Assembly: GCA_002898315.1 (NCBI GenBank)
Contig: BEHV01000009.1
Coordinates: forward strand, 20,697-84,696
Source: a bacterium HR19
Lineage (GTDB): Bacteria > Calescibacteriota > Calescibacteriia > Calescibacteriales > Calescibacteriaceae
Length of the DNA: 64,000 nucleotides
Direction of reading: 5' to 3'
Part shown: positions 1 to 9,942 of the stretch, piece after piece
Numbering within the stretch: position 1 is the stretch's first letter
Layout: the number at the start of each line of letters is the position of its first letter
Position numbers and translations under genes: made by a program
The notes under the pieces: model-generated
The model's input: only the letters and a program-made list of their open reading frames with translations
Databases searched by the model: none
Told to the model about the DNA's origin: nothing

Positions 1-964
1 GATTTTCTATATTCTGAATTATTTCCTCTAAGGCCTCAAAAGAACTAAAATTCCACACTTTTTCAATCCTATCTCTGTTTCCCGAAACAAAAAGATGTAT
101 CTCTTTACCTGTACCGAACGGAGTTCTCAAAGATGGTTCGGCTTTCGGGAAAACATAAACTCCCGGCACCTCAACCACATCTGAAAACAGCATAACTTTC
201 TGCAAAAAATAGAAATCTTCCCCGGCTTTTCGCACACTCATTCCCATGCTCACAACATAAACCAAAGCTCTGAAAGCAAAAAGAGAACCAATAGGATAGA
301 AAGCATTCTTATACCCGCAAACTCTCAGAGAATTTTTCCAATACCTCAAAAATAGTTCCCAAACTATTCCTGCTTCCTTTACATCTTCTCTTTCGGAAAA
401 CCTGTGAGCAAAAGACATTATTCCAAAATCAGCTTCCCTTAAATCAACAAAATCAAGAGCAGAAAAATAGTTTTTTGAAACTGTTGAATCCGAATCAAGA
501 GAAAATATAAACTTCCGATGTAAAAGCTCATAAAGTTCGTCTTTTCTTTTGCACTTTTTGGAAATTGAGCATATCGCTTCATCCATAAGAACTCTTCTTG
601 CAAAACCCACTCCTGCAACATTTTTTGGAACGGACCTTATATGCCTTACCTCAACCATCAGATTATCTCGTTCATATCTTTTGGATACACGCAAAAGCTC
701 TTCAAAAATTTTTCTGTTTTCCTCTTTTATATTTTCACACGCATCTTCTGATTCATTCAGTAAAACCGCCACAACCACATTTTTGCCAAATGTATCACAC
801 TCCGAAACAGATTCAAGAGTTGAAAAAATCTCACGATCAGCCATAACAGGAATAGCGACAAAAATATCAAAGTCCCTTTCAATCCCCAAACATATATGCC
901 GGGAGATTATCTCCGATACATTCTTTTCAAGTTTTTCCCGACTGGTAGTAAATCTTCTATGCAT
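1..964 (-). CDS. GT-A fold glycosyltransferase, partial (C-terminus beyond the window)
   Basis: An open frame runs from ATG 964 off the left edge, giving about 321 residues. Near the N-terminus it reads FVAIPVMADREIF, like the nucleotide-sugar-binding start of GT2-like enzymes. Mid-protein is a DxD-type motif in FSLDSDSTVSKNYF, and later comes AGEDFYFLQ, which resembles the catalytic-base (ED) region. It probably transfers a sugar to a lipid, polysaccharide or small-molecule acceptor; the acceptor cannot be told. The ATG lies 8 nt after the mutS stop on the same strand, so the two are likely co-transcribed. No Shine-Dalgarno site is clear. The family assignment rests on motifs only. Confidence 0.7.
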   Translation of the reverse strand, partial: MHRRFTTSREKLEKNVSEIISRHICLGIERDFDIFVAIPVMADREIFSTLESVSECDTFGKNVVVAVLLNESEDACENIKEENRKIFEELLRVSKRYERDNLMVEVRHIRSVPKNVAGVGFARRVLMDEAICSISKKCKRKDELYELLHRKFIFSLDSDSTVSKNYFSALDFVDLREADFGIMSFAHRFSEREDVKEAGIVWELFLRYWKNSLRVCGYKNAFYPIGSLFAFRALVYVVSMGMSVRKAGEDFYFLQKVMLFSDVVEVPGVYVFPKAEPSLRTPFGTGKEIHLFVSGNRDRIEKVWNFSSFEALEEIIQNIEN

Positions 965-972
965 AATGTTTT

Positions 973-3471
973 TTATTGTTCGGCAAGTTTTTTAAGCTCC
1001 GAAAGTATATTCAAAGCTTCAACGGGAGTGAGCGAGTTTATATCTATTTTTTTCAACTCCTGTCTTATCGGGTCAGATTTATATGTTGAAGCAGAGAAAA
1101 GAGAAATCTGCAAAGGTATTCCTGAAATCTTTTTTATAACATCTCCTATTTTTCCCTGTTCAAGAGCAATAAGAATTTTTTCAGCTTTTTGTATTATTTC
1201 ATCTGGTATTCCGGCGAGGCGAGCGACATCTATTCCCCAAGATTTTCCGGCAGGACCTCTTTTTATCTTTCTCACAAAAACCAAATTTCCACCTATTCTT
1301 TCAGCAGAAAAATGCATATTTTTTATACCTTTGAGGTTCAGTTCAAGAAAAGAAAGCTCGTGAAAATGAGTTGCGAAAAGACATCTTACCTTTCTTTTAT
1401 TTATAAATTCAGCAGTAGCCCAGGCAATAGATATACCATCAAAAGTTGATGTTCCCCTGCCGACCTCATCAAGAAAAACGAGCGACTTTTCTGTCATACT
1501 TTTGAGTATCTGAGATAATTCCTCCATCTCAACAAAAAAAGTGCTCCTCCCTCTTGCTATATCATCCGACGCACCGGTTCTGAAAAATATCTTGTCTGCT
1601 ATGCCTATTTTAGCTTCTTTTGCTGGAACAAAACTACCAACCTGAGCAAGAAGAGTTATAAGAGCACATTGCTTTAGAAAAACTGATTTCCCCGCCATGT
1701 TTGGACCGGTTATAATCCACATAAAATCATTTTCATCAAGTTCAACTGAGTTTGGAATAAACTTCTCGTCTTTGAGCATAAGTTCTAAGGAAGGATGTCT
1801 TCCCTCTTTTATGTAGAGAACCTTTTCATCTGTAATTTGCGGTTTGACCCAGTCATATTTAAAAGCGGTCTGAGCAAAAGAAAATATGACATCTAACAGA
1901 GCTATTGCTCTTGAAGCTTGGAGCAAATCAACACAAAATCTCTGCAGGTCTTCTATAAGCTGATTATAAATCTCCTGATTGAGAGCTTTTTCTCTTTCAG
2001 AAGCAGAGGAGATTTCAACCGCAATTCTTTCAAGTTCTTCTGTGGTAAACCTTTCAGCGTTTGCGAGCGTCTGCTTCCTCTTGAAATAACCCGGAACTTT
2101 CCCAAGATGAACCTTTGAAACCTCTATGTAGTATCCGAAAACCTGATTATATCCTATCTTCAAAGGGATACCAGTTCTTGCTCTTTCTCTTTCTTCATAC
2201 TCTATGAGAATTTTCTCGGAATTCTCTTTTATCTCTCTTACTCTGTCAAGCTCTTGTGATATACCTTTTTTTATCGCTCCATCTTGTGCTTTGAGCGGCG
2301 GTGGTTCAACTATATACCTTTCCACAATATCTACAAACTCCCAGAGGTCTGGAATATCATCGGATAACTTTCTTATCAGTTTTGATGAGAATTCGCTGAG
2401 TTTATCTTTCGTAGCCATTGTTTTTTTTGCTGATTCTTTCAGAGAAACAAGTTCTTTCGGATTAATTATTTTTCTCATCAATCTTATCGCTAATCTCTCC
2501 ATATCTGCAATTCCTTCAAGGTCAATCTCTTCATACGCTTTTTTTGAAATCACCTCTTCAACCGCGTCAAGTCTTTCTCTTATCTTTTCTATATCTGCAA
2601 GAGGAGAACTTATGATGTTTCTGAGCTTCCGCTTACCCATAGGTGTCTTTGTGCTGTCTAATACCCAAAGCAAACTTCCTTTCTTTCCCTCATAGGTTTT
2701 GAAAACATCAAGGTTATCAAGAGTTCTTGAGTCAATCTGGACAGCCCACGAATCGTCTTCAATTTCTGGTTTCTCAATCCTTATCTCTATATCTTTTATG
2801 TTCTCCCTTATATATTTTATGAGAGAGGCAAAAGGAACTTTCAGGACATCTGTGATAGAATCAAAGTTTTCAGCCAAAATTTCTCGCACTTCGGAATCAT
2901 TTGGAAAGTCAATCTTCGTGAATTTATACTCCGGGAAAATATTCACATCACTTAGTATCTCTCTTGGAGAAATTTTTCTTATGAGTTCGCTTAACTCAAA
3001 ATCATCTCTTGCTATTTTAGCTTTCACCTCACCGGTCGTTATATCTGCCCAGATTACAATACGCCCCCTTATAACCGCAATAAAATTGTTCTCATCTGGG
3101 GAGACAAAACTCAACTCGGTCACAAGTCCCGGAGTTATAACTCTCACAACACCCCTTTTGACTATGCCCTTTGCTTTTGATGGGTCTTCAAGTTGCTCAC
3201 ATATCGCAACTTTAAAACCTTCTTTGACGAGACGAGAAATATAAGATTCCGCTGCGTGATGCGGAAACCCAGCCATAGGAATTGAACCATCTTTTGATGT
3301 CAAAACAATGTCAAGAGTTCGCGAAGCAATTACAGCATCTTCAAAAAAGAGTTCGTAAAAATCTCCTATCCTGAAAAGCAAAAGACAATCGGGATACTCC
3401 GATTTTATCTGAAGGTATTGCCTCATAGCAGGAGTCAATCTCTCAAAACCTTCTTTCCCTCCCCTATCCAT
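973..3471 (-). CDS. mutS: DNA mismatch repair protein MutS
   Basis: This 832-residue protein recognises base mismatches and recruits the repair machinery. The mismatch-reading Phe-x-Glu motif is seen in FRIGDFYELFFEDA near residue 40. The ABC-type ATPase follows, with Walker A GPNMAGKS near residue 588 and Walker B LVFLDEVGRGTSTFDG near 660. Length matches the bacterial MutS1 family. The frame stays open to an ATG at 3576 and another at 3501. I chose the ATG at 3471 because family members begin about ten residues before LTPAMRQYL and the upstream residues look like translated AT-rich intergenic sequence. A divergent epimerase gene starts at 3537, so both promoters share a very short space. 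Confidence 0.95.
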   Translation of the reverse strand: MDRGGKEGFERLTPAMRQYLQIKSEYPDCLLLFRIGDFYELFFEDAVIASRTLDIVLTSKDGSIPMAGFPHHAAESYISRLVKEGFKVAICEQLEDPSKAKGIVKRGVVRVITPGLVTELSFVSPDENNFIAVIRGRIVIWADITTGEVKAKIARDDFELSELIRKISPREILSDVNIFPEYKFTKIDFPNDSEVREILAENFDSITDVLKVPFASLIKYIRENIKDIEIRIEKPEIEDDSWAVQIDSRTLDNLDVFKTYEGKKGSLLWVLDSTKTPMGKRKLRNIISSPLADIEKIRERLDAVEEVISKKAYEEIDLEGIADMERLAIRLMRKIINPKELVSLKESAKKTMATKDKLSEFSSKLIRKLSDDIPDLWEFVDIVERYIVEPPPLKAQDGAIKKGISQELDRVREIKENSEKILIEYEERERARTGIPLKIGYNQVFGYYIEVSKVHLGKVPGYFKRKQTLANAERFTTEELERIAVEISSASEREKALNQEIYNQLIEDLQRFCVDLLQASRAIALLDVIFSFAQTAFKYDWVKPQITDEKVLYIKEGRHPSLELMLKDEKFIPNSVELDENDFMWIITGPNMAGKSVFLKQCALITLLAQVGSFVPAKEAKIGIADKIFFRTGASDDIARGRSTFFVEMEELSQILKSMTEKSLVFLDEVGRGTSTFDGISIAWATAEFINKRKVRCLFATHFHELSFLELNLKGIKNMHFSAERIGGNLVFVRKIKRGPAGKSWGIDVARLAGIPDEIIQKAEKILIALEQGKIGDVIKKISGIPLQISLFSASTYKSDPIRQELKKIDINSLTPVEALNILSELKKLAEQ

Positions 3472-3521
3472 AAAACACAAATAATTTATTCGTTTTTTCA
3501 TTCTTAGGAAATTTTGAAATT

Positions 3522-3527
3522 TATATT
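3522..3527 (+). promoter_or_regulatory. -10-like hexamer for a leaderless epimerase transcript
   Basis: TATATT sits 9 nt before ATG 3537 and no Shine-Dalgarno sequence is present. The spacing would put the transcription start at or next to the start codon. No clear -35 box is visible. Confidence 0.4.
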
Positions 3528-3536
3528 TTCTCAAAT

Positions 3537-4277
3537 ATGAGTGAGCTTGAAAGAGAAATGAAACTTCTGGAGTCAATTCTCTCTCCTTACTTCAAAATAA
3601 CAAAAAAAGGAGCGGATTACCTTGTAGCTGAAAAAGATGGTGAAAAACAATTCTGGACTGCGAAGATAAACTTCCCAACCCCGGCTTCTGTTGAGATTCT
3701 CGCAGGAGAAGTAATATCAATAAAACCCAAGAGCGTTTTTGTTGTCTCACAGTTTGAAGATTGGCAGACCGCATTAACCGACTCCCTCAAAGAAAAAGGA
3801 TTTTCATGCGAAGTCCAGAGAATATCACCCATAGATATAGGAGCCATGACCGCAGGGTTTCTTCCTTTCTCTGAACACATAGGAGTCGCAGTGAATAACC
3901 TTGAAGAAGCGGAGAAGAAATTTGAAGAAGTCCTTGGCGTAAAACCTTCGGGAAGACACAGAGTAGAAACAGAAGGTCTAACTGCCTCCTTTATCTGGGT
4001 TGGCTCAACAAGAATAGAGCTTTTAGAACCTTTTTCCAGCGACTCCGCAGTAAAATCATTCCTTGAAAAAAAAGGAGAAGGAATACACCACATAGCAGTA
4101 CAAGTTGATGAATTTGACAGAAAATTAGAAGAACTGAAAAACAAAGGTTATAGAATAATTGGACCAAGAGTAGGAGCGACAGGGAAGAGAGTTTTCTTCA
4201 TACATCCAAAAGATTTCCTTGGCATACTCCTTGAAATAGTTGAAAAAGGTTATAGAGAAAGAGCTTTTGAAGAATAA
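3537..4277 (+). CDS. mce: Methylmalonyl-CoA epimerase with an extra N-terminal domain
   Basis: Residues 114-238 form a vicinal-oxygen-chelate (glyoxalase-fold) domain of the methylmalonyl-CoA epimerase type. Metal-ligand positions are visible as His in SEHIGVAV, Glu in IELLEP, His in GEGIHHIAVQV and Glu in LLEIVE. The enzyme interconverts (S)- and (R)-methylmalonyl-CoA on the propionyl-CoA/succinyl-CoA route, which needs the B12-dependent mutase; cbiB lies elsewhere in the window. Typical epimerases are about 130-150 residues, whereas this protein has 246. The first 110 residues are a separate, unrecognised segment. It is transcribed divergently from mutS and converges on proS. Confidence 0.85.
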   Translation: MSELEREMKLLESILSPYFKITKKGADYLVAEKDGEKQFWTAKINFPTPASVEILAGEVISIKPKSVFVVSQFEDWQTALTDSLKEKGFSCEVQRISPIDIGAMTAGFLPFSEHIGVAVNNLEEAEKKFEEVLGVKPSGRHRVETEGLTASFIWVGSTRIELLEPFSSDSAVKSFLEKKGEGIHHIAVQVDEFDRKLEELKNKGYRIIGPRVGATGKRVFFIHPKDFLGILLEIVEKGYRERAFEE

Positions 4278-4306
4278 GAGTTTCCTTTGTGGATTATGTT
4301 TTGACT

Positions 4307-6037
4307 TTATTCGTTCTTATTGAGGTATTTTTCAACTTCTTCTCTCACCCTTTCGGCTTCTACCTCTTTTTTCTCTTTGGTCAACCTGTTGATTATTTCT
4401 ACTTTTCCCTTATCTTTCAGTAGCTTTCCTACGACGATTTTTATCGGCGCTCCCCAGAGGTCGCAATCTGCAAATTTTTCTCCGGGACTTATATCATCTC
4501 TATCATCAAGAAGCGATATATCTTTTAGTTCAGAGTAAATTTTGAATGTGGTCTCCGCTATAAGCTCATCTCTGATATTGACCGGTATTATATGAACCTT
4601 GAAAGGAGCAATCTCTGGGGGAAACGCAACCCCTTTTTCGTCTCCAAACTTCTCAACAATAGATGCGAGAACTCTTGAAACACCTATACCATAGCACCCC
4701 ATAACAACATATTTTTTCGTCTTGTCTTTATCTGTATATGTCAGCTCCATAGGTTCAGAGTATTTTGTCCCAAGATAAAAAACATGCCCGAGTTCAAGAC
4801 CCTTTTTTTCTCTCAACTTTCCTACTCTGCATTTTGGGCATATATCACCTTCCTCCGCAAGAGAAATATCTGCAATCTCCTTTACAGGAAAATCTCTTAT
4901 GGGAACAACATTTATGTAGTGGTAGTCGTCTTCGTCAGCTCCTGCAACTCCATCTTTGCAGTAAAGAACAGTTCTATCAACGATAATCCTTCCCCTGTAT
5001 CTTAAAGGTCCGATAAAACCTTTGCCTGCACCAAATATGCTTCTTACGTCGCTCTCATCTGCGAGTTCAAAATTTTCACCTATGTATTGGGTGAGTTTAT
5101 CTTCTGAAATCTGTCTGTCTCCCCTGACAAGGCAAAGGGCATAATTCCCGCTTTGAGTTTTTATGAAAAACGATTTTATTATTTTTGAAGTCGGGATATT
5201 CAAAAACTTCGCAAGCTCTTCCACTGTGGTCGTCGCAGGAGTATGAACTTTCTTTTTAGGAGCTTCTGACTGATTCTGCGCTTCTTTTATGAGTTCTCCC
5301 ATGAGTTTATCAACATCTACAAAAAAACTTGATATTTCTTTTTTTGATATGAAGTTGCATTTTTCACACTCCATTATTCTGTCTTCGCCATAATCTGTAA
5401 GGAATATGAATTCATGTGAGAATTTTCCCCCAATAGCACCCACCGCCGCTTCAACGGGAATAACATCAAGGTTCAACCTCTCAAAAATCCTCTCGTATGC
5501 TTTATAAAACTTCCAGTATGTATTTTCTGCTTCTTCTTCATTTCTGTCAAATGAGTATGCGTCTTTCATTATGAACTCTCTTGCTCTTATAATCCCAAAG
5601 CGCGGTCTCGCTTCATCTCGGAACTTCGGACCAATCTGGAACAAAGAAAAAGGTAAATCCCTCCATGAATTCACAAAAAATCTCACAAGGTCTGTGATAA
5701 TTTCTTCATGAGTCGGAGCAAGACAGAACTCTCTTTCATTCCTGTCTTTGAACCTTATGAGTTCTTTGCCATAAACATCCCATCTTCCTGTCTCCTTCCA
5801 GAGTTCAGATGGGGTCATAACAGGGAGTCGGACCTCATAGCAGTTTATTTTTGCCATCTCCTCCCTTATCACATCTTCTATTTTTTTCAGGACTTTAAAA
5901 CCGAGTGGTGAGAAATCATAAATTCCTGATGCTACTTTTTTTATGTATCCACCTTTTGTAAGAATAAAATGGCTTTTTGATTCCGCATCTTTCGGCGGTT
6001 CTTTCAGCGAAAAAATAAAAAACTCCGAAACTTTCAT
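4307..6037 (-). CDS. proS: Prolyl-tRNA synthetase (bacterial type)
   Basis: This 576-residue class II aminoacyl-tRNA synthetase charges tRNA-Pro. Motif 2 is seen in FRDEARPRFGIIRAREF, followed by IMKDAYSFDR. Motif 3 is GCYGIGVSRVLASIVEKF. Between them, roughly residues 225-385, lies a YbaK-like editing insertion (INS domain) that clears mischarged Ala-tRNA-Pro, which marks the bacterial ProS1 class. The last 100 residues are the anticodon-binding domain. Length is normal. The start ATG 6037 gives the expected MKVSEFFIFSLKE opening. It is transcribed alone, convergent with the epimerase gene. Confidence 0.96.
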   Translation of the reverse strand: MKVSEFFIFSLKEPPKDAESKSHFILTKGGYIKKVASGIYDFSPLGFKVLKKIEDVIREEMAKINCYEVRLPVMTPSELWKETGRWDVYGKELIRFKDRNEREFCLAPTHEEIITDLVRFFVNSWRDLPFSLFQIGPKFRDEARPRFGIIRAREFIMKDAYSFDRNEEEAENTYWKFYKAYERIFERLNLDVIPVEAAVGAIGGKFSHEFIFLTDYGEDRIMECEKCNFISKKEISSFFVDVDKLMGELIKEAQNQSEAPKKKVHTPATTTVEELAKFLNIPTSKIIKSFFIKTQSGNYALCLVRGDRQISEDKLTQYIGENFELADESDVRSIFGAGKGFIGPLRYRGRIIVDRTVLYCKDGVAGADEDDYHYINVVPIRDFPVKEIADISLAEEGDICPKCRVGKLREKKGLELGHVFYLGTKYSEPMELTYTDKDKTKKYVVMGCYGIGVSRVLASIVEKFGDEKGVAFPPEIAPFKVHIIPVNIRDELIAETTFKIYSELKDISLLDDRDDISPGEKFADCDLWGAPIKIVVGKLLKDKGKVEIINRLTKEKKEVEAERVREEVEKYLNKNE

Positions 6038-6098
6038 CGTAATAATATGTAAGACATCACACTAACCCGTGTTTATTTTTGAATTGTTTTTACTGATT

Positions 6099-6239
6099 TC
6101 ACTTGCCTATTTTTATTTCCCTCAGCTTTTTGGGTTCTTCTACGGTCATCACTTCTCCCGAAACCTTGAATAGAATCAACCCTTTTCTTTTTGCGTATTT
6201 TTCCAATCCTTCTCCAAAGGTCATCCCAGCTATAGCTCC
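6099..6239 (-). pseudogene. Remnant copy of the 3' end of the 7131-7792 gene
   Basis: Bases 6106-6239 are identical to 7150-7283, the 3' part of the coiled-coil gene. In the matching frame this copy encodes the same C-terminal tail, ending EIKIGK and TGA at 6099. Upstream the frame runs only into a Glu/Lys-rich stretch and then a TAA near 6270, with no start codon. It is therefore a headless fragment, not a gene. Confidence 0.85.
6106..6239. repeat. 134-bp direct repeat, left copy
   Basis: Base-by-base comparison shows a perfect match to 7150-7283, offset by 1,044 bp. The first flanking base differs on each side (g versus a on the left, a versus c on the right). Together the copies bracket the toxin-antitoxin pair and tatA. 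Confidence 0.93.
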
Positions 6240-6372
6240 ACCTTTCTCTCCTTCTTCTTTTTCTTCTTCTTAAAGAAGTTGTACCAAAATTTTTCCCGCG
6301 AAGATGCTAAAAACCCTCTACAACCGCCATAGAAAAAAAATTTTATCTTGTGGAAATCTCACAATCTGTTTT

Positions 6373-6378
6373 TAAATT
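6373..6378 (+). promoter_or_regulatory. -10-like hexamer for the toxin-antitoxin operon
   Basis: TAAATT lies 9 nt before ATG 6388. Only a weak purine run (aagaag) separates them, so a leaderless or near-leaderless transcript is likely. Confidence 0.4.
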
Positions 6379-6387
6379 TAAAGAAGA

Positions 6388-6594
6388 ATGGAAATAAAGG
6401 GCACAACAAAAGTAAAAGATTTAACAGTTGAAGAACTCAAAACTTTGATATTAGAAATAGTCAAAGAAAGTATTGAAGACATAATTGAAGATATTTTGGC
6501 ACTTTCAAGTGAAGAATATCTGCGCTCAATTGAAGAAGCAAGAAAAGATTATAAAGAGGGAAGAATAAAACGAATTGAGGAAATAGATGTATAA
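6388..6594 (+). CDS. RelB-type antitoxin
   Basis: This 68-residue acidic protein opens MEIKGTTKVKDLTVEELK and carries the stretch ALSSEEYLRSIEEARKDY, both familiar from small antitoxins paired with RelE toxins in thermophilic bacteria and archaea. It should bind and neutralise the toxin encoded next to it and help repress the operon. Its last 8 bases overlap the toxin start, the usual translational coupling of such pairs. The family is inferred from size, charge and the adjacent toxin. Confidence 0.8.
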   Translation: MEIKGTTKVKDLTVEELKTLILEIVKESIEDIIEDILALSSEEYLRSIEEARKDYKEGRIKRIEEIDV

Positions 6595-6835
6595 AATAAT
6601 TTTTACTCAGAGAGCTCTGAAAGATTGGGAAAAACTTAGTAGAGAAAATCAAAACAGAATTGCTAAAAAACTTAAAGAATATGCCGAAGAACCTCTTAAA
6701 TATGCAAGGAAGTTAATAAACCCAAAAATAGGAACATACAGATTCAGAATAGGTGATTACAGAGTCATATTTGATGTTAATGGAGAAAATATAGTAATTT
6801 TGAGAATCGGCCATAGAAAAGAAATTTATAAATGA
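6587..6835 (+). CDS. RelE-family toxin (mRNA interferase)
   Basis: The 82-residue protein has the RelE/ParE plan: a basic N-terminal helix pair (MYKIIFTQRALKDWEKL) followed by a beta-sheet core. RelE toxins cleave mRNA on the ribosome using basic residues and a late tyrosine. Here the core YRFRIGDYRVIF and the end RIGHRKEIYK supply candidate Arg, Arg/Lys and Tyr residues, so it looks active. It overlaps its antitoxin by 8 nt. The pair sits between two 134-bp direct repeats, which hints at recent rearrangement. Confidence 0.88.
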   Translation: MYKIIFTQRALKDWEKLSRENQNRIAKKLKEYAEEPLKYARKLINPKIGTYRFRIGDYRVIFDVNGENIVILRIGHRKEIYK

Positions 6836-6935
6836 CCAAATCTCATAGATAATTTTACCTATTCAAGTTCGTCAAAACAAAAATTATGTGGTTTGTGATT
6901 GTTCTGCTTCTTCTGAGGGCTATGCCCTCTTTTCC

Positions 6936-7042
6936 TTATGCTTTTTTGAATTCCCGCACCACCTGACCGAGTTCCCTCGCAAGTTCAGGAATTTTTTTGC
7001 ACCAAATAAAAGAGCAATTATAAGAAATCCAAATCCTGCCAT
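6936..7042 (-). pseudogene. tatA: tatA-like gene with a one-base frameshift
   Basis: From ATG 7042 the frame reads MAGFGFLIIALLFGAKK, the transmembrane start of TatA/TatE, the pore-forming part of twin-arginine export. After the A7 run (T7 at 6992-6998 on the plus strand) this frame turns into unrelated residues. Adding one A restores IPELARELGQVVREFKKA and a TAA at 6936, the classic TatA amphipathic helix. The repaired protein is only 35 residues, shorter than usual TatA. A Shine-Dalgarno AGGAAG precedes the ATG by about 11 nt. Whether this is decay, transcriptional slippage or an assembly error cannot be told. Confidence 0.75.
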
Positions 7043-7149
7043 CTTTTTTTCACTTCCTATGAAAAATTTAACAAGCAGAAAATATTTTTCCCGAGTTCGC
7101 ACACACAAGGAATTTTACTTACGATTGATTTTACTTACCTCGGCGCATA

Positions 7150-7283
7150 CCTATTTTTATTTCCCTCAGCTTTTTGGGTTCTTCTACGGTCATCACTTCT
7201 CCCGAAACCTTGAATAGAATCAACCCTTTTCTTTTTGCGTATTTTTCCAATCCTTCTCCAAAGGTCATCCCAGCTATAGCTCC
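7150..7283. repeat. 134-bp direct repeat, right copy
   Basis: Identical to 6106-6239. This copy is the authentic 3' part of the coiled-coil gene, which continues a few codons further (MRRGK) to its own stop at 7131. Confidence 0.93.
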
Positions 7284-7582
7284 CCACAAAGTATAACCCT
7301 TGGAATCCTCTCCCATAAAAAAATCAAAGTTTCTCATGTCTTCAAGAAGGTCATCTACATCTCGGGACCCCGCATGAGTTTTCGCAGATACAAGAAGAAC
7401 TACTTTTTTGTCCTGCGACACAACAAGAGTATCATATTCCGCATTTTTCCCATTCTTTGAGACATTCAGGCGGCGGTGAACACTGATTTCTGAAAGCCCT
7501 TTTTCCCTCATGAATTCTTCAGCAGATGGTGAGACCATACCCTCCACAAATCTGCCCCAGCTATCTGTGAGTTTATTCACCT

Positions 7583-7669
7583 TCTCATCGGTTTTTCTCA
7601 GTTGCTCGTCTGTTTTTCTCAATTGTTCGTCTGTTTTTTCAATTGTTCATCTGTTTTTTTCTGCGCTTC
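7583..7669 (-). repeat. 21-bp tandem repeats encoding TDEQLRK heptads
   Basis: About four imperfect 21-bp units run head to tail and encode the heptad T-D-E-Q-L-R-K of the coiled coil. The unit nearest the N-terminus carries the A6 run where the frame is lost. Such repeats are prone to slippage. Confidence 0.7.
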
Positions 7670-7792
7670 TTTGAGTTCTCTTATCTGCTCAGTTGTTTCC
7701 TTCTGAAATTCCCTGAGTTCTCTTATTTCAACGGCGATTTTTTCCACTAACCTCTCAACCCTTGATAACCTGTCGTTTTTCTTTGAGGGCAT

Positions 7793-7977
7793 ATATTTAT
7801 TTTATTCTGATTTGATTTGAATTTCAAATCAATTGAAAATAGTAGCTTTCTCGGCTTTTTTCCTTTCAAAATCTTTTTGTGAAAATTTTGACACCATTAC
7901 ACTGAAAATCTTCGGTCTGCAAAACTGCAAAACAAAAAAACCTCTCCTCAAATATTTATGCTATTTTGAAAGATATA
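7793..7977. other. AT-rich intergenic region, divergent promoters only
   Basis: The stretch separates a minus-strand and a plus-strand gene. It is very AT-rich and holds no convincing coding frame or hairpin. It presumably contains both promoters. Confidence 0.4.
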
Positions 7978-8163
7978 ATGGAAAAACTCTACAAAATAAG
8001 CGTTTTCCTCCATATCCTTGGATTCGCCTTCTGGGTAGGTGGAATGATGTTTATTTCATTTATCATACGACCCGCAATACAAAAAATGGAAAGTTATCCC
8101 GCTATCCTTGAAAAAATCGCAACATATTTCAGCAAAACAACATGGTTTTTTATAGTTGATTGA
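7978..8163 (+). pseudogene. Truncated CopD-like membrane protein paralogue
   Basis: From ATG 7978 the protein reads MEKLYKISVFLHILGFAFW and stays alignable with the full-length paralogue at 9463-9942 for about 58 residues, up to TTWFFI. It then ends VD and TGA. The later membrane helices of the paralogue are absent. The nucleotide sequence has diverged clearly from 9463, so the two copies are old tandem paralogues. The break point abuts the segment with the inward-facing methyltransferase gene, which suggests the 3' part was replaced by an insertion or deletion. Confidence 0.8.
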
Positions 8164-8383
8164 TCGACTTTTGATTTATTTACCGAATTGTTTTGACACA
8201 ACTATTTCAAGAGATGGTGTAATACAGCAGGAAGAAAAGGTGGTAAAGGTGTTATAAAGGACGGGACCAAATCAAAAACAATATAAGCATCTTATCTTTA
8301 AAATCCTTAATGTATCACTTTATTAGATTAACACGAAATCAAAATAACATGACATAAGCAGCAGTTGAAAGTTGGTAAATTAA
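8164..8383. other. Unassigned sequence at a gene break
   Basis: About 220 bp between the truncated membrane-protein gene and the methyltransferase. I translated the plus strand and found only short broken frames. No terminal inverted repeat or transposase fragment is recognisable. It may be the relic of whatever truncated the upstream gene. Confidence 0.4.
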
Positions 8384-9350
8384 CTATAAGATTTTTTCCA
8401 AAATTAAAGTCCAGCTGTTTTTATTATGATGCCTCAGTGCAATACACCTTTGTTTGCTTTCATTTATCCATTTTTCCAATTCTTGTCGGGATAAGAAATG
8501 TGTTATTGGCGCATTCATCTGATCATAAACAATATTTTGTATCTCTTTAAACGGGAATTTAGAAATATAATCCAAGTAATCTTTGTAAAAGACCTTAACT
8601 GGCATCCTTGAAATAAGGTAAACTAAAATAGAGGGCGGGAGCGGGAAAGACATATAATAAAGTATCTCAGGTTTTATTTTTGAAAGTATTTTCTTCCTCA
8701 GAGGTTCAAAATATTTTATAATCCAATCATTCCCCTCTTGCGCGTATATCCAAATTATTAATATTCCTCTTTTAAATAGAACCGAAGTTAATGATTTGAA
8801 CCCTTCATAAGGGGAAGGTAAATGATGTATTACCCCTATTGAATACACAATATGAAAACATTTCTTAAAGGGTAAAGAGCTAATGTCACCTTGAACTATG
8901 TGAACATTTTCTAAATGTTCCGTATTCATATAAGCTACCTCTACAGAATCACTAATATCTAACCCTATTACTTCTTTTGCGCCAAATTTTTGAACTTGGA
9001 TAAGATGTCTCCCTTTACCACATCCTGCATCAAGAACTACTTTATCTTTGAAATTTTCTGGTTTGAAGGGATATATCCATTTCTAAAAATTGCTTCTCAT
9101 ATAATTCAAAGATATGTTTGTGTAACTTCCATTCCACCCCGAACCTCATCGCAATTTTTCTTTTTTCGTTTGATAGATTTTCTCGATCCAAAATTCGCGG
9201 TATTCCTCTATAAATAGGATAAACTGCTTGGCAATTCTCACAAACTAAACTACCTTCAATTATCTTTTCTTTGTCCCTTTTCTTTGAATATAACTGAAAA
9301 ACTGATTTACACTTTGGACAAGAAAGGAACTTAAGGAGCCTTGGTCTCAT
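8384..9350 (-). pseudogene. Trm112-type zinc domain plus SAM methyltransferase, frameshifted
   Basis: ATG 9350 opens MRPRLLKFLSCPKCKSVF, a Trm112-like zinc ribbon with a second pair CENC. Next comes a class I methyltransferase whose SAM-binding motif VVLDAGCGKGRHL is in a different frame. Removing one base from the GGG at 9068-9070 joins both parts into one 321-residue protein ending at 8384. The later stretch reads YSIGVIHHLPSPYEGF, typical of the UbiE/Methyltransf_11 group. Such enzymes usually sit in surface-polysaccharide or small-molecule clusters; the substrate here is unknown. The gene lies inside a disrupted patch next to a truncated paralogue, so horizontal arrival is plausible. Confidence 0.75.
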
Positions 9351-9462
9351 AATTAGAAAATATTTTTGTAAGTAAAATGTCTTAATAACTTGCAGGAAAA
9401 TTGAAACCGGCATTTCTTACTTTTTTCTACTTCTTAAATTAAGTTTCAAAAATTAAACAGAT

Positions 9463-9942
9463 ATGGAAAAGGTGTACAAAATATCCGTTCTCCTACATAT
9501 ATTGGGATTTTCATTGTGGTATGGGGGAATGTTGTTTATCTCCCTGATTTTGCTCCCGTTTATAAAAACAAAAAGCGATTACCCCGATATACTTGAGAAA
9601 ATAGCAAAAAGGTATAGCAACATAACATGGTTTTTTATTTTTCCTTTAATGCTCGTCACAGGTTTTATAAATGCTTACGCGAGAACCGGAACGATAAACC
9701 CACTCCTCTGGTCCGAATACACAAACGGCAAATACATAGTTTTAAAGCTCCATCTTTTCTTTCTTATCATCATACTAAGCGCTATACATGATTTCTGGTT
9801 AGGACCAAAAGCGGTAAAACTCATGCGGGAAGGAAAAAAAGAAAACATGAGGAAAATTTCAGGTATAATAGGAAGAATAAATTTTATCCTCGCTACACTG
9901 ATGCTCATATTCGGAATATCAACAGTGCGAGGATGCTTATGA
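9463..9942 (+). CDS. CopD/DUF4149-like integral membrane protein
   Basis: This 159-residue protein has four predicted membrane helices. The first reads KISVLLHILGFSLWYGGMLF, resembling the His- and Trp-containing first helix of CopD- and DUF4149-type membrane proteins. The second starts TWFFIFPLMLVTGF, the third LKLHLFFLIIILSAIHDFWLG, and the fourth lies near the C-terminus. Conserved His residues in helices one and three could bind heme or metal; that is inference. It is the intact partner of the truncated copy at 7978. Function unknown. Confidence 0.7.
   Translation: MEKVYKISVLLHILGFSLWYGGMLFISLILLPFIKTKSDYPDILEKIAKRYSNITWFFIFPLMLVTGFINAYARTGTINPLLWSEYTNGKYIVLKLHLFFLIIILSAIHDFWLGPKAVKLMREGKKENMRKISGIIGRINFILATLMLIFGISTVRGCL

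Follow-up and report, generated by a model that had tools for sequence, protein, structure and literature searches.

Chromosomal rearrangement mediated by dispersed repeats is known for rRNA operons and insertion sequences. Concerted evolution and gene conversion between dispersed paralogs of prokaryotes are described in PMC6053082. The locus analyzed here resembles both, as copies of a small gene, nuc, exchange sequence within a genome and stand at differing chromosome joints. The window, meaning the entire 64-kb stretch of DNA under analysis, belongs to a draft genome, G000, which is 82% complete in 22 contigs. For comparison we used two genomes of the same genus (G001 and G002) and two of the same family (G003 and G004). 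A protein search identified Candidatus Calescibacterium and bins of its group as relatives.

A perfect direct repeat beside proS

A repeat search of the 64-kb window finds one pair of repeats of at least 30 bp. The segments 6106-6239 and 7150-7283 are identical in direct orientation at 134 of 134 positions and lie 1,044 bp apart; an exact match of this length excludes chance as the origin of the repeat. The features of the locus are as follows.

4307-6037, minus strand: proS (prolyl-tRNA synthetase), the left conserved flank; in G002 the protein is 93% identical and the neighbors are the same
6095-6099: left edge of the block absent from G002; AATCA (minus strand) fits both the proS side and the tail of the paralog on contig C17
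6106-6239, minus strand: left repeat copy, the headless last 44 codons of a nuc gene, with no upstream part
6240-7149: 910-bp segment between the repeats; homolog in the family genomes for the tatA part only
6388-6594, plus strand: putative antitoxin, 68 aa, named from position only
6587-6835, plus strand: predicted toxin of the RelE/ParE superfamily, 82 aa (PF05016 and TIGR02385)
6937-7042, minus strand: tatA remnant, 78% DNA identity to the intact tatA on G000 contig C5
7131-7792, minus strand: nuc gene, N-terminal coiled coil and restriction-endonuclease-like domain, frameshifted at ~7620-7640
7150-7283, minus strand: right repeat copy, within the nuc gene
7978-8153, plus strand: copD 5' fragment, orthologous and 85% identical to the 5' end of G002 copD, cut at AACATGGTTTTTTAT
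8154-9638: second insertion, which contains a frameshifted methyltransferase and terminates in a divergent 5' end of copD; its anatomy resembles the nuc locus

On the minus strand the two repeat copies correspond to one and the same part of nuc, its last 44 codons. The gene that owns the right copy is split into two ORFs (7619-7792 and 7131-7622). A sequence-only reading had described the perfect repeat and had taken the left copy for a headless end of this gene, and both the ORFs and the comparison with paralogs agree with it; that reading does not mention the frameshift in the owning gene. Past the repeat the coding tails are short (...GK and stop on the left, ...MRRGK and stop on the right). 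An attempt to recognize the native copy from these tails gave a clear result at first, which was then equaled by the chance level of AT-rich sequence: shuffles returned values down to 0.0015 even for plain sequence upstream of proS. Because the tails are short and AT-rich, the native copy is not discernible from them, and they likewise do not decide how the 910-bp segment entered.

The same anatomy might be an artefact of assembly or of strain mixture, as the assembly graph, which leads from proS to the repeat, from there through the toxin segment back to the repeat and on into the nuc body, would fit equally well an intact chromosome and a separate molecule, a 1,044-bp circle. The genome is a draft, 134 bp is near common k-mer limits, and in G001 and G002 there are contigs that break off within nuc copies. 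However, the window contig runs straight through both copies into distinct flanks, and mis-joining with the known paralogs is unlikely, since the exact matches of the window nuc elsewhere in its own genome reach no more than 61 and 27 bp. We regard an artefact as quite unlikely. An integrated form, an excised form or a mixture of the two is possible.

An empty site in the sister genome

The alignment to G002, at ~90% identity, extends from window position 1 to 6098 and resumes at 7921, with 14 bp between these points in G002. At the left boundary the homology continues through ACTGATT and then ends. G002 lacks the intervening block of ~1.8 kb (6100-7920) altogether, and with it both repeats, nuc, tatA and the toxin pair. 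In the examined stretches of G001, G003 and G004, nuc is not found beside proS, which makes a gain in G000 the simpler reading: an accessory block with a nuc gene would have been inserted between proS and copD in the G000 lineage.

It follows from the anatomy, as the sequence-only reading had pointed out, that recombination between the two copies would delete 1,044 bp including the toxin pair. The comparison with sister genomes that it had proposed yields no such form: the 1,044-bp deletion is absent from all four family relatives. G002 was considered as a candidate and rejected. A deletion product would retain one repeat and nuc, whereas G002 has neither, and is thus an empty site. The natural test of addiction that the sequence-only reading suggested finds no support in these genomes. 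Should the deletion form come to light, natural populations would allow a comparison of cells that have the toxin pair with cells that lack it.

The two repeat copies differ at 0 of 134 positions, against a divergence of 10.3% in the G002 flanks. This would place their last common copy within less than ~0.22 of the time since the split of G000 and G002 (95%), an estimate that is void if later conversion reset the differences.

Contents of the segment between the repeats

The product of 6587-6835 is a predicted RelE/ParE-type toxin, matching ParE_toxin PF05016 (E 2.7e-16, 60.4 bits, cut-off 23) and RelE/StbE TIGR02385 (30.9 bits, cut-off 27.9). The 68-aa ORF overlaps the start of the toxin by 8 bp and has no Pfam or NCBIfam match above cut-off, so that it is called an antitoxin by position alone. 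The RelBE-type pair proposed earlier therefore stands for the toxin, while its antitoxin half is positional. The tatA of the segment had been described as frameshifted, which holds but says too little: compared with the intact gene, the remnant is also truncated, and its membrane helix is shorter by ~8 residues.

A transposon was rejected given the lack of inverted repeats at the ends of 6240-7149, the lack of a transposase and the size of the duplication, which is 134 bp and not short. The segment could instead derive from a small circle carrying a nuc 3' end, the toxin pair and tatA, integrated by a single (Campbell-type) crossover or by site-specific recombination and able to excise again. 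The arrangement of a complete gene on one side, a headless 3' end on the other and an element between them fits such an event; RelE/ParE relatives are common on plasmids, and the best plasmid relatives of this toxin are ~44% identical. But the ORFs of the 910 bp comprise only the toxin-antitoxin ORFs and the tatA remnant, with no integrase, recombinase, replication or other mobility gene among them, no further copy is present among the family genomes, and the tatA pseudogene suggests old chromosomal debris, which makes circle integration unlikely. In a search of the family genomes for a donor of the segment, tatA alone recurs elsewhere.

A second insertion in copD

The neighboring gene shows a comparable structure. 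At the edges of the copD insertion (8094-8153 and 9579-9638) lies a 60-bp direct repeat of 78% identity whose last 15 bases are identical, and identity to G002 rises from 68% to 88-92% past the divergent copD 5' end. Judging from these alignments, inserts appear to have entered both the intergenic region between proS and copD and the 5' end of copD, each leaving behind part of a gene end as a second copy. A mostly non-coding dispersed repeat (8150-8393) begins at the copD breakpoint, with matches of 74-81% at G000:C17:24535-24752, at two places in G000:C7 and at G002:C23:62097-62198.

The joint at 6239/6240 displays no visible homology, and homologous recombination alone does not account for the segment. 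This observation bears on a further explanation, in which a break in the nuc 3' end was repaired with capture of the 910 bp, the 134 bp being duplicated by fill-in or template switching without involvement of the paralogs. Such an event would explain why the ends of the repeat set both joints exactly and why one joint lacks homology, and the copD insert, with its 15-bp exact repeat at the edge, is alike. However, 134 bp is long for a duplication of this kind, and the wider exchange between nuc copies is left unexplained by it. We consider break repair a possible origin, albeit on the unlikely side.

Sequence exchange between nuc copies

Besides the window copy, G000 carries nuc on contigs C4 (81% identical protein) and C17 (59%). 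In G002, copies are found on C4, C35 and C23, with partial ones at the ends of contigs C7, C29 and C53. The G000 paralogs are 84-90% identical over the 134-bp stretch, against the full identity of the two window copies. Much closer similarity is found between copies within G002: the 3' zones of C4 and C35 are 97.8% identical and include an exact run of 107 bp, and 50-bp bins upstream of the shared block show 50-92% identity. Further exact runs measure 124 bp (G002 C4/C7), 100 bp (G002 C35/C29) and 336 bp (two G001 copies).

These values can be set against those of copies with the same flank in the sister genome. The 3' zone of G002 C35, so similar to that of C4, is 80.6% identical to G000 C17, with which it shares flank C; the 5' zone of G002 C7 is 97.7% identical to G002 C4 and 83.1% to G000 C17, which has the same flank D. 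Overall, nuc copies at matching flanks of G000 and G002 are ~81-86% identical, while the flanks themselves reach 88-91%. Paralogs within a genome are thus closer to each other than copies at orthologous flanks, a pattern that we interpret, from these identities, as concerted evolution by gene conversion.

The copies also stand at chromosome joints that are paired differently in the two genomes (loci L038, L039, L042, L049 and L050). In G000, the C4 copy forms the joint A-nuc-B and the C17 copy the joint C-nuc-D. In G002, the C35 copy forms C-nuc-B, and A-nuc (C53) and nuc-D (C7) lie on contigs ending inside nuc. The polarity of the gene ends is constant, each flank staying at the same 3' or 5' side of nuc. 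The flanks of the C4 and C29 copies of G002 adjoin in G000 C2 with no nuc between them. Mis-joining at short repeats is a lesser concern for the G000 joints, which are reasonably safe given longest common runs of 27-61 bp, than for those of G002, which are less safe; several G002 copies used as parallels sit at contig ends. On G002 C23 (L048:6578-10171), nuc and a chemoreceptor-like gene form a 3.6-kb insert, and the corresponding flanks in G000 C15 are 15 bp apart without it.

The nuc product

The fold was taken from the intact C4 paralog, the model of which has a mean pLDDT of 83.7 and displays a long N-terminal helix followed by a C-terminal domain modeled at ~90 or more over most of its length. 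The top Foldseek matches in the PDB are NucS/EndoMS, SfsA, Card1 and Can2 with modest TM-scores (0.2-0.4), and the C-terminal domain of the model is predicted to adopt the PD-(D/E)XK (restriction-endonuclease-like) fold. The catalytic motif D...(D/E)-x-K is degenerate: most members read E-Y-D ... S-A-K, with S-A-K in place of the usual E-x-K, and the D of E-Y-D is lost in the copies on C17 and G002 C35. Nuclease activity of the product appears doubtful on account of this motif. Two members (L039:6689-7426 and L042, the latter being G002 C35) have D-F-G or D-Y-G in place of E-Y-D, a variant middle segment that lacks a putative catalytic residue. The family falls below the gathering threshold of DUF3782 (PF12644), with 19.8 against 24.4 bits for the C4 paralog and any match at all in 3 of 8 members. 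Viral or phage origin was dropped as a candidate, as nuc has no match in phages or viral contigs. A literature search on DUF3782 and on the mechanism considered here found nothing specific.

One could envisage nuc as a self-promoting recombination system, in which the nuclease-like product, or a relative of it, would promote breakage at nuc copies, carry the gene into new intergenic sites, homogenize the copies and drive chromosome rearrangement in Calescibacterium, the duplicated 3' end around the toxin pair being one by-product. We hold this to be very improbable.

Origin of the repeat

Sequence comparison shows the repeat itself, the empty site in the sister genome, the homogenization of nuc copies within genomes and the placement of nuc at differing joints of G000 and G002. 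Because nuc copies are homogenized within a genome, carry exact runs of 100-336 bp and stand at differing joints, recent recombination among nuc copies is the most likely source of the 134-bp identity. The earlier suggestion of a recent duplication or recombination is supported by the absence of mismatches and by the recent exchange among the other paralogs. On balance, we find it somewhat probable that recent homologous recombination among members of the dispersed nuc family produced the repeats.

Under homologous recombination within the family, a 910-bp segment with the toxin-antitoxin pair and the tatA pseudogene would have been captured and would now lie between two identical copies of the nuc 3' end, one of which would have been recently copied from, or homogenized with, the other. 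The segment might have come in through crossover or conversion at the 3' end of nuc; conceivable routes are a crossover with a donor that carries a nuc 3' end of its own, a break repair that duplicated the target, and integration of a circle. Renewed recombination between the repeats could still remove the segment. We read the locus as a recombination scar of an ordinary kind within accessory sequence, with the toxin pair as a passenger flanked by gene ends that recombine. It offers a clear case of the way in which accessory blocks are built in an uncultivated thermophile lineage: an insertion between conserved genes, gene ends left in duplicate, pseudogenes, and a toxin pair carried along. 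Of more general interest is the nuc family, with its copies exchanging sequence and placed at differing joints of the chromosome.

Comparison with known systems

The toxin locus resembles chromosomal RelBE/ParDE loci in having a RelE/ParE-type toxin preceded by a small ORF with an 8-bp overlap, but the antitoxin has no family match and the pair lies between direct repeats in an accessory block. Like DUF3782 and other restriction-endonuclease-like proteins with an N-terminal coiled coil, nuc combines a coiled coil with a domain close to NucS/EndoMS, Card1 and Can2; it differs by scoring below the DUF3782 gathering threshold and by a serine in place of the E of E-x-K. With the rearrangements mediated by rRNA operons and insertion sequences it shares dispersed repeats at partner-swapped joints of constant polarity, whereas here the repeats are protein-coding, with neither transposase nor rRNA, and the joints come from draft assemblies. 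Compared with concerted evolution as described in PMC6053082, nuc copies are likewise more alike within a genome than at matching flanks of the sister, but the family is a small, nuclease-like one and its homogenization is patchy, being strongest at the gene ends.
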